DNA of 64,000 bases, taken from Chelativorans sp. Marseille-P2723 (lineage in GTDB: Bacteria > Pseudomonadota > Alphaproteobacteria > Rhizobiales > Rhizobiaceae). Positions 32,027-34,219 of the stretch are shown one piece after another; the stretch's first letter is position 1; the number at the start of each line of letters is the position of its first letter. Below the pieces are notes generated by a model that saw nothing but the letters and a program-made list of their open reading frames with translations, was not told the DNA's origin and did no database searches. Position numbers and translations under genes: made by a program. The DNA is taken from positions 124,001-188,000 of the forward strand of contig NZ_CADDWI010000008.1 of NCBI RefSeq assembly GCF_902809845.1. Direction: 5' to 3'.

Positions 32027-32991
32027 ACCAGCATGAAAGCATCATGGCGGTCGATCAGGTCGTGACGCCAGATTATGCGATCTATCAAGGCGATTGCTGT
32101 GAGCTTATTCGCGCTATTCCCGGCGACAGCATTCACTTCGGCATTCATAGCCCGCCTTTCGAGGGGCTTTACAAATTCAGCAACTTCGACCGCGACATTT
32201 CGAACAATGAGGGTGACAGCTTTTGGCAGCATTATGCCTTCCTCATTCAAGAGCTTCTTCGCGTCACCATGCCGGGGCGGCTCCATGCGGTTCACGTGAT
32301 GCAGCTTCCCGCGTCAAAAATCCGACATGGCTTCATCGGCATGCGGGATTTCCGGGGCGAGGTCATTCGCGCTTATGAGGATGCAGGCTGGATATTCCAT
32401 AGCGAAGTCTGCATCTGGAAAGATCCAGTCGTCGCGCAGCAGCGCACCAAATCCATCCGCCTACTGCACAAGCAGATCGTCAAAGACAGCACTATCAGCG
32501 GTCAGGGACTTGCCGATTACATCGTCACATTCCGTAAGCCGGGAGAAAACCCCGAGCCTGTTGCGGGCTGTTTCAGTCGTTATGTCGGATCAGGGCCGGA
32601 ACCGGATCGCTCGAAATACACCACGCCGACCGATGGTCGGAATTGGTATTCAATTGAGGTTTGGCAGCGGTATGCCTCGCCTGTCTGGATGGACATCAAC
32701 CAGACGAGAACGCTCCAATATCGCAATGCTCGGGACGAGAAGGACGAAGTTCATATCTCGCCTCTGCAACTCGACGTAATTGAGCGCTGCATCGACCTTT
32801 GGAGCAATCCCGGTGAAACCGTACTAACGCCATTCCTTGGTATTGGCAGCGAGGTTTATGGCGCGGTTGCCGCTGGTCGTAAGGGCATCGGCTTTGAGCT
32901 TAAGCCATCTTATTTCGTGCAGGCCGTCAAGAATATCGCAGAGCTTCACCGGGCGCGGACGGAGGATCTATTCGCGGAGGCAGTTGCATGA
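32023..32991 (+). CDS. DNA N4/N6 methyltransferase
   Basis: The 322-residue beta-class methyltransferase has catalytic motif IV as SPPF (IHSPPFEGLYKFS near residue 43) and the AdoMet motif I as PFLGIGSEVYGAV near residue 270. SPPF allows either m4C or m6A; the base cannot be decided. It overlaps the helicase and the VRR-NUC gene by four bases each. There is no linked classic restriction endonuclease, so protection from host restriction is the simplest role. Confidence 0.92.
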   Translation: MNQHESIMAVDQVVTPDYAIYQGDCCELIRAIPGDSIHFGIHSPPFEGLYKFSNFDRDISNNEGDSFWQHYAFLIQELLRVTMPGRLHAVHVMQLPASKIRHGFIGMRDFRGEVIRAYEDAGWIFHSEVCIWKDPVVAQQRTKSIRLLHKQIVKDSTISGQGLADYIVTFRKPGENPEPVAGCFSRYVGSGPEPDRSKYTTPTDGRNWYSIEVWQRYASPVWMDINQTRTLQYRNARDEKDEVHISPLQLDVIERCIDLWSNPGETVLTPFLGIGSEVYGAVAAGRKGIGFELKPSYFVQAVKNIAELHRARTEDLFAEAVA

Positions 32992-33353
32992 CCATTGCTC
33001 CCAAGCCCTCTGAATTCCAGATCCATGCAGCCATCGTGGAGTACCTGCGCAGGGCGCTTCCTGATGGATATCGGGTGGAATGCAACCTTAATAACCCGCG
33101 CAGCAAGGCGGATGGTGCTCGTCTTAAGGCGATGGGCCTTACCGCTGGCCGTCCTGACATAGAGATCATCGGTCCCGGGGGCTCTGTCGCTGTTATCGAG
33201 ATCAAGGCTCCGAAGGGGCGTCTTTCACCTACCCAGAAAGCCTATCAGGAATGGTGCGATGACTGGCATGTGCCTCACTGTGTCGCCCGCTCCATAGGCG
33301 ATGTCCAAGCCTTCCTCATTGATCTGAATGTGCCGGTGAGGTGTACGGCATGA
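32988..33353 (+). CDS. VRR-NUC domain nuclease
   Basis: The 121-residue protein is a stand-alone VRR-NUC nuclease: SEFQIHAAIVEYLRRALP, GLTAGRPDIEIIGPGG, then the catalytic ExK in VAVIEIKAPKGRLSPTQ, and HCVARSIGDVQAFL. Stand-alone VRR-NUC proteins from phages can act on branched DNA such as Holliday junctions. It sits between two DNA methyltransferases and is coupled to both. Confidence 0.92.
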   Translation: MTIAPKPSEFQIHAAIVEYLRRALPDGYRVECNLNNPRSKADGARLKAMGLTAGRPDIEIIGPGGSVAVIEIKAPKGRLSPTQKAYQEWCDDWHVPHCVARSIGDVQAFLIDLNVPVRCTA

Positions 33354-34219
33354 GAAAGCTGCGCGTCCTCGATTTGTTCAGCGGTATCGGTGGCTTCTCG
33401 CTTGGCCTTGAGCGCACTGGTGGCTTCGAGACAGTAGCCTTCTGCGAGATCGATCCGTTCTGCCGCCGTGTGCTGGCGAAGCATTGGCCGGAGGTTCCCT
33501 GTTACCATGACGTTCGAGAGCTCACAGCCGACACTCTTCGCAGAGACGGAATTGCCGCCGATATCATCACTGGCGGGTTCCCGTGCCAAGATATCAGCAC
33601 CGCCGGGAAGCAGGCCGGCTTGGGCGAGGGCACTAGGTCAGGGCTCTGGTCAGAAATCGTCCGACTTGCTTGCGAAATTCGACCGAAATTCCTCATCGTG
33701 GAGAACGTTGCAAACCTGCTTAGTGGCCCATCTCACAAGCCAGGCGGGTGGTTTGGCCGAGTTCTCGGAGACTTGGCCGAATGCGGGTACGATGCGGAAT
33801 GGGAGAATATACCAGCGGCTGCCTTGGGCGCTCCGCACGTTAGAGAGCGCGTCTGGATTATTGCCTACCCCTCGGAAGAACGACAGTCAAAAGAGAGGCA
33901 ACTTCGATATACATCAGTTGCGGAATGGCTTTCCTGCTGCGGTGAAGCGGTTATTTCTTCCCACGCTGGGCAAGAACGAGCCGAAGGGCGCAAGCCGCAA
34001 CAGGTATCGGGGTTCTCCGCATTTTCGTGGTGCCAAAATGTCCGAAGGGCTGAGGATCTGCGAGGACGATCCGATATACCTCCACCCCTCTTTCGCGGAA
34101 GCCGTGATGGGATTCCCAATTGGGTGGACCGAATTGGGTCCTGCGGAAACGCAGTAATCCCACAAATTCCAGAGCTGATCGGCTACGCCATACTCGAAAG
34201 CATGGCGCGGCCGGCATGA
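33350..34219 (+). CDS. dcm: DNA (cytosine-5) methyltransferase
   Basis: The 289-residue enzyme has motif I DLFSGIGGFSLG, catalytic motif IV GGFPCQDIS, motif VI ENVANLL, motif VIII APHVRERVWII and motif X GNAVIPQIPE. The ATG at 33350 overlaps the VRR-NUC stop (ATGA). The target-recognition stretch between motifs VIII and X (about 33870–34110) is weakly conserved in this frame. The +1 frame there encodes another recognisable sequence (see 33507–34157). Confidence 0.93.
   Translation: MRKLRVLDLFSGIGGFSLGLERTGGFETVAFCEIDPFCRRVLAKHWPEVPCYHDVRELTADTLRRDGIAADIITGGFPCQDISTAGKQAGLGEGTRSGLWSEIVRLACEIRPKFLIVENVANLLSGPSHKPGGWFGRVLGDLAECGYDAEWENIPAAALGAPHVRERVWIIAYPSEERQSKERQLRYTSVAEWLSCCGEAVISSHAGQERAEGRKPQQVSGFSAFSWCQNVRRAEDLRGRSDIPPPLFRGSRDGIPNWVDRIGSCGNAVIPQIPELIGYAILESMARPA
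33507..34157 (+). CDS. Overlapping +1-frame protein inside the C5 methyltransferase gene
   Basis: A 216-codon open frame lies wholly inside the C5 methyltransferase gene in the +1 frame. It reads like a protein family found in many phages: SSSWRTLQTCLV, then FSETWPNAGTMRNGRIYQR, then SGLLPTPRKND, and ending FAEAVMGFPIGWTEL. The last lies over the frame-0 GIPNWVDRIGSCGNA. The start is unclear; an ATG at 33507 or a GTG at 33468 could be used, neither with a good SD. If translated, this is a true dual-coding region. If not, it is a remarkable conserved shadow. Confidence 0.5.
   Translation: MTFESSQPTLFAETELPPISSLAGSRAKISAPPGSRPAWARALGQGSGQKSSDLLAKFDRNSSSWRTLQTCLVAHLTSQAGGLAEFSETWPNAGTMRNGRIYQRLPWALRTLESASGLLPTPRKNDSQKRGNFDIHQLRNGFPAAVKRLFLPTLGKNEPKGASRNRYRGSPHFRGAKMSEGLRICEDDPIYLHPSFAEAVMGFPIGWTELGPAETQ

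Follow-up and report, generated by a model that had tools for sequence, protein, structure and literature searches.

The window, by which we mean the whole 64,000-nucleotide stretch of DNA analysed here, comes from a genome of 3.77 Mb (G000) and contains a same-strand run of genes for a helicase, an N4/N6 methyltransferase (MTase), a VRR-NUC nuclease and a C5 MTase. The ATG at 33350 that starts the C5 MTase gene overlaps the stop codon of the preceding VRR-NUC gene (ATGA), and a promoter and terminator scan returned 0 promoter-like and 2 terminator-like sites, with 0.8 and 1.1 in shuffled sequence. Inside the C5 MTase gene lies a long open frame that runs one base ahead of it (+1), and an IMG/VR viral contig (L009) carries the same +1 protein at 100% identity. 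The neighbouring N4/N6 MTase gene also contains a +1 ORF, of 150 codons (32327-32779). In C5 MTases, a variable region (the TRD) lies between motifs VIII and IX and forms, together with IX, the small domain (PMC3404938). The features of the locus, with the evidence for each, are as follows.

33350-34219, + strand: frame-0 C5-cytosine DNA methyltransferase (large chain), with motifs I-VIII, a linker and motif X (PF00145, PHROG_363, AF2).
33438-34157, + strand: +1 open frame, stop to stop and including the stop codon, inside the MTase gene (PHROG_1008).
33490-33494, + strand: GGAGG, Shine-Dalgarno-like, 12 nt upstream of ATG 33507 (from the sequence only).
33507-34157, + strand: proposed +1 protein (small chain) of 216 aa from ATG 33507, a guessed start.
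33572-33592, + strand: frame-0 motif IV, GGFPCQD, with the catalytic Cys (sequence).
33666-33842, + strand: putative +1 N-terminal conserved domain (LLAKFDRNSSSWRTLQT...FSETWPNAGTMRNGRIYQR...) over frame-0 motifs V-VIII (constraint, AF2, p1N).
33701-33709, + strand: frame-0 motif VI, ENV (sequence).
33839-33865, + strand: frame-0 motif VIII region, RERVWIIA (sequence).
33843-34061, + strand: +1 TRD-like segment (SGLLPTPRKND ... KGASRNRYRGSPHFRGAKMSEGL; p1C matches, constraint of 2.39x).
33902-34132, + strand: frame-0 linker from VIII to X, residues 184-260, replacing a small domain (AF2, substitutions).
34080-34136, + strand: putative +1 motif IX (LHPSFAEAVMGFPIGWTEL; fourfold-site identity, p1IX profile).
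34145-34165, + strand: frame-0 motif X, GNAVIPQ (sequence, AF2).

The frame-0 protein matches PHROG_363 (2.1e-81) and PF00145 (E=2.5e-44, residues 4-179), the latter over profile positions 2-168 of 324 only. Motifs I-VIII and X, numbered after the usual C5-MTase nomenclature, are present in the window's frame 0, and no motif IX was seen there. The window thus lacks the arrangement of a single-chain C5 MTase, in which IX follows VIII and precedes X within one frame. The AF2 model comprises a confident large domain (residues 1-170, block pLDDT 77-98), a linker with block pLDDT of 39-59 (residues 181-260) and a motif X helix with pLDDT of 72 (residues 261-270) and 95 (residues 271-280), and its best Foldseek match is M.HhaI, over 173-178 columns. 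As modelled, frame 0 has no confident small domain, and a low-confidence linker stands in its place.

From stop to stop, the +1 ORF has 239 codons (33438-34154, with the stop codon at 34155-34157); counted from ATG 33507 it has 216, as first reported. The stretches by which it had been recognised, SSSWRTLQTCLV, FSETWPNAGTMRNGRIYQR, SGLLPTPRKND and MGFPIGWTEL, are all found within this ORF. The last of them had been placed exactly over motif X; it lies at 34107-34136, just upstream of the X core (GN, 34145). What we take to be +1 motif IX owes its identity to homology to single-chain relatives and to the motif consensus. As a start, ATG 33507 is a guess; ATGs are frequent there in relatives, in which frame-0 residue 52 is NAT in 25 cases and NAC in 20, a weak excess over the 18.5 NAT expected. 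A role for the GGAGG is only a suggestion, because the same letters spell frame-0 residues. By profile, the +1 protein is a member of PHROG_1008 (7.8e-21), and it has no sequence match in Pfam, NCBIfam or the PDB. Modelled alone by AF2, it reaches a pLDDT of 60.5 and a pTM of 0.30, with a block pLDDT of 60-75 for residues 51-110; so poor a model might fit a partner-dependent chain and, equally, a wrong one. A Pfam search of 108 +1 members (E up to 0.1) matched four families, each through one weak member, and no HNH family was among them, which speaks against a hidden homing endonuclease of the ShiLan type (PMC11855218).

Relatives of the +1 protein are numerous. A tblastn search matched 242 phage records, and in 49 of them the match covers 80% or more of the query. 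In the Paenibacillus phages Lily and Rani the +1 protein is annotated as an "internal gene," and Dylan, LittleGuy and Heather each have two overlapping genes labelled DNA methylase or methyltransferase. Profile searches yielded at least 79 new viral loci and at least 80 loci on genome contigs from many phyla, including one archaeal MAG; the genome contigs gave no relatives when searched with the single +1 protein and gave these when searched with the alignment. Among the matches listed, the best matches to the +1 family and to the MTase lie in overlapping ORFs, with +1 one base ahead, in 191 of 191 loci, and no free-standing +1 copy was found in these loci, which had been ascertained through the +1 protein. 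The family had initially been regarded as one of free-standing phage proteins. Among the matches listed, it is instead nested or overlapping throughout, or its C-terminal half is fused in frame. Because the 191 loci came through the +1 protein, we gathered 80 viral loci through an alignment of frame 0, among which some contigs occur more than once. A +1 match was present in all 80. The p1N profile matched in +1 in 79, and the p1IX profile matched in +1 in 76 and in frame 0 in none (74 of 264 loci, the window included, escaped a crude pattern for +1 motif IX); motif X was in frame 0 in 73. Among 101 genomes, comprising the window's relatives and its own, 12 matched the +1 profile, some of them with internal stops. 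A relative of the Kluyvera copy occurs in 4 of 5426 E. coli genomes, and the gene table of E. coli PT62 has one MTase at the locus, with no second CDS overlying it.

Several loci have peculiarities of their own. In L029 a stop interrupts +1 immediately ahead of the MGWPIGWTDL stretch (motif IX), and in L031 the linker contains a frame-0 stop. LPTP-like stretches occur several times per TRD-like region in L005, L007, L030, L031 and L276, as if modules had been repeated, and the Roseovarius MAG OX638333.1 has five copies of the locus (L169-L173) in one chromosome, with equal match statistics. The MTase of Gordonia phage Ailee (L280) is annotated as two joined pieces with an HNH endonuclease gene within its span, like the elements described in PMC11855218. 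The nested phage MTase family is undescribed in the open-licence PMC papers that we found, and nothing on it was seen in passages from PMC3091744, PMC10885494, PMC11860570, PMC4168068 and PMC6456624.

Stop codons are scarce in the +1 frame of the family. Expected numbers were obtained by synonymous codon shuffling, which preserves the frame-0 protein and its codon usage. Of the 80 loci ascertained through frame 0, the count used the 73 with a parsed motif X and covered the stretch that begins at motif IV and ends 12 codons short of X. The +1 frame has 12 stops against 334.0 expected, and the third frame (+2) has 652 against 651.9; 63 of the 73 loci are stop-free in +1 and 10 have at least one stop. 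Stops thus do not appear freely in the +1 frame of homologues, a point on which the initial annotation had proposed to judge the case. Kinship was handled by comparing disjoint pairs and by merging loci that are nearly identical (200 of 230 kept, some contigs being present twice among the loci), and after collapse at 98% identity the 70 remaining loci still have 12 +1 stops against 312.6, with 617 against 609.2 in +2. The depletion is regional, with observed/expected +1 stops of 160/120.7 in I-III, 4/208.4 in IV-VIII (75 loci) and 7/101.1 in VIII-X (65 loci), in a count that used 75 of the 80 window-family loci (2 unparsed). Genome-borne PF00145 genes from the window's phylum, of which 13 of 30 loci were parsed, have 71 +1 stops over IV-VIII against 72.5 expected, and 0 of the 13 is stop-free. 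The +2 frame of the same 13 controls fell below expectation over IV-VIII (74 against 102.8), so the null is inexact in this small sample. For the window gene alone, 28 of 5000 synonymous shuffles equal or exceed its +1 run, and its openness is therefore modest evidence by itself; it is the family evidence that goes far past chance. When the +1 protein was held fixed instead, frame-0 stops between VIII and IX numbered 0 against 157.5 expected (66 loci parsed by X in frame 0). Against the +1 profile, synonymously recoded genes score 64 bits on average and real genes 160. Since a +2 shadow profile likewise beat recoding, in 76 of 80 loci, this score is support and not independent proof.

Constraint on third positions and the direction of substitutions lead to the same frame. 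Each third codon position of frame 0 is a second position in +1 and should be constrained if +1 is coding. In 1928 of 3741 pairs, those with less than 50% frame-0 identity, agreement at fourfold third positions relative to expectation is 1.08x before the +1 ORF, 1.27x from the +1 N terminus to IV, 1.75x in IV-VIII, 2.39x in the linker/TRD, 3.03x in IX (identity of 0.837 against 0.276 expected) and 1.32x from X. Codon inheritance hardly explains this regional pattern, because the starts of the same genes are near background. Over V-VIII, close pairs (61 pairs, 1394 changes) show changes altering both proteins at 0.53x and changes silent in both at 5.42x; those that create a +1 stop without altering the frame-0 protein stand at 0.36x, those silent in frame 0 only at 1.90x and those silent in +1 only at 0.88x. 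By these ratios, both frames are constrained there, frame 0 more so. Between VIII and IX (44 pairs, 1247 changes, counted on a frame-neutral DNA alignment), changes silent in +1 only are at 2.26x and those silent in frame 0 only at 0.54x, a direction repeated in other substitution counts, one of which had 228 loci parsed (43 unparsed). Motifs I-III and X have the ordinary frame-0 pattern. The lead therefore passes to +1 past motif VIII and returns to frame 0 at X. Substitutions that follow frame-0 constraint alone, the other outcome considered at the outset, are not what is seen; both frames count over V-VIII, and +1 is the dominant one from VIII to IX. These comparisons demonstrate purifying selection on both frames in the family. 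The initial annotation had offered a choice between two frames in use and one conserved shadow. Selection on both frames speaks for the former, and a shadow component is also real, as the bits retained by recoded genes indicate.

What the +1 frame might encode is suggested by relatives in which the same segment lies elsewhere. The C-terminal half of the +1 protein, from SGLLPTP to the end, is represented by the p1C profile. This profile matches the +1 frame in the split loci L003, L005, L274 and L278 and in the nested loci L273 and L277, and it matches frame 0 itself in the single-chain loci L275, L276, L279 and L280 (in L276 also weakly +1). By phage, the C-terminal half is found in +1 in the split Dylan, LittleGuy, A10ZJ24 and Heather and in the nested ShroomBoi and Rani; in single-chain enzymes it is found in the MTase's frame between VIII and X (VRedHorse, Daenerys, Actinomyces xhp1) or after VIII (Gordonia Ailee). 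PHROG_1008 independently takes in the Dylan +1 ORF (4.3e-60) and matches the single-chain Daenerys gp70 (2e-72, with the best stretch at residues 346-542), so that it spans the window, split and single-chain forms. The C-terminal half of the +1 protein is thus in all likelihood the TRD together with motif IX. The actinophages have split as well as single-chain versions of one MTase, with the TRD-IX module in differing frames.

We consider it highly probable that the gene encodes a two-chain C5 MTase in two overlapping frames, with frame 0 providing the catalytic and +1 the recognition part. Frame 0 would yield the large catalytic domain, in which a flexible linker connects motifs I-VIII to X. 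From the +1 frame would come a second protein, probably initiated inside the gene near ATG 33507, whose C-terminal half would be the small DNA-reading domain (TRD and IX) and whose N-terminal half would be overprinted on motifs V-VIII. Once translated, the +1 chain would pair with the frame-0 chain and assemble into an enzyme that methylates a defined target.

The N-terminal half of the +1 protein bears on the first of three alternatives, namely that the +1 product is an overprinted, independent protein with another job, such as regulating or assisting the MTase. This half stays in +1 in the loci where TRD-IX is in frame 0 (L275, L276, L279 and L280), and a Streptococcus-phage type whose frame 0 is complete keeps a related ORF open. 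The MTase of Streptococcus phage Javan336 (L281) covers positions 1-322 of 324 of PF00145, its +1 ORF is PHROG_16143, and L281-L361 have a nested +1 ORF of 142-192 codons, stop to stop, over IV-VIII. In that region the Javan336 relatives have 0 +1 stops against 335.0 expected (66 of 80 loci), and a regional recount for this type took 43 non-redundant loci of the 80 (1 unparsed); the whole-gene count, 734 against 941 (67 loci), masks the regional effect. In close pairs of this type, changes that make a +1 stop number 5 against 13.3 where they are silent in frame 0 and 0 against 30.8 otherwise, and amino-acid changes track frame 0 more closely than +1. In the Javan336 group, +1 has an LSDILE..FFLS stretch, and a like stretch is found in frame 0 of three genome-borne MTases. 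Because the Streptococcus type keeps +1 despite a complete frame 0, the N-terminal half needs a use beyond supplying IX. As an account of the whole +1 protein, however, an independent job is unlikely, since the C-terminal half shares homology with the post-VIII segment of the MTase itself and the window's frame 0 lacks that segment as a folded domain in the AF2 model. Such a job may also coexist with a two-chain enzyme.

Less probable still is a programmed +1 frameshift after VIII, which would produce one chain of I-VIII, TRD and IX. The leading frame does switch just past VIII, and single-chain relatives show that very order of parts, but the resulting chain would be without motif X, and the +1 frame is also open and constrained upstream, over V-VIII, where a slip past VIII does not need it. 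The actinophages likewise point away from a slip. Their 16 single-chain loci have observed/expected +1 stops of 27/20.6 before motif V and 2/19.8 after it (the actinophage count used 24 of 38 loci, 11 being unparsed and the others repeats), and +1 coding would therefore start near motif V there, as an internal start predicts. A conserved shadow, with frame 0 alone translated and +1 forced by frame-0 motifs and codon habits, accounts for the score that recoded genes keep and for the +1 reading of ENV and LGYDVEW as RT and WGMMWNG in Javan336, but we reject it as very improbable in view of the +1 stop depletion, the third-position constraint that peaks at IX, the VIII-IX substitutions that track +1 and the genome-borne C5 MTases without depletion.

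Returning to the two-chain MTase, a wider reading can be put forward tentatively, and we hold it to be possible rather than probable. Phage C5 MTases would include a large and old frame-partitioned class in which the leading frame switches where one domain ends and later reverts, and in which the catalytic and the recognition domain come as two proteins from the same DNA. The N-terminal half of the +1 protein might then be an older overprinted gene with its own function, kept where the TRD is in frame 0 (actinophages) or never lost (the Streptococcus-phage type). If the two-chain reading is true, many annotated phage and prophage C5 MTases are half enzymes on paper, with the specificity chain hidden in +1 or annotated alone as "DNA methyltransferase" or "hypothetical protein." Prediction of specificity, cloning from frame 0 alone or recoding would then fail unnoticed. 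The family would also be a rare and widespread case of natural overprinting in which both proteins are parts of one enzyme, and its split, nested and single-chain relatives would allow the steps to be reconstructed. The label of PHROG_1008, "DNA methyltransferase," is silent on its members being nested, split or fused with another MTase part.

Three known systems invite comparison. The ShiLan domain, as described in PMC11855218, is an out-of-frame ORF with an HNH inside a phage DNA methylase gene. The window resembles it in having an out-of-frame ORF in a phage-type DNA methylase gene, and, unlike that inserted homing element as there described, its +1 frame has no HNH match and overlaps conserved motifs that belong to the MTase itself. 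C5 MTases that are split between VIII and the TRD complement well (PMC5944983), and a natural split is known in M.AquI (CYCGRG), with I-VIII on the large chain and IX-X on the small one (PMC3404938). Mycobacteriophage Dylan and Streptomyces phage Heather are like M.AquI, with a long overlap of the two genes, and the layout with IX and X on the small chain is found in L003, L005 and the translations of L274 and L278. The window is unlike M.AquI in that its motif X is in frame 0 and not on the small chain.

M.EcoHK31I has a small chain that is coded within the large one, in another frame. By its published description it is the nearest known case: a two-polypeptide C5 MTase (YGGCCR) whose large chain holds I-VIII and X, while the small chain alone holds IX (PMC3404938); PMC3439449 describes it as naturally split. 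The window agrees with it in that the large chain has I-VIII and X and IX would be on the second chain only. The two differ, when compared by description, in the place of the TRD, since the predicted TRD of M.EcoHK31I was published on the large chain, whereas the window has its TRD-like module on the +1 chain and, in frame 0, a linker that appears to be unfolded. The phage family goes beyond M.EcoHK31I in its wide spread and in having split and single-chain relatives besides the nested form.
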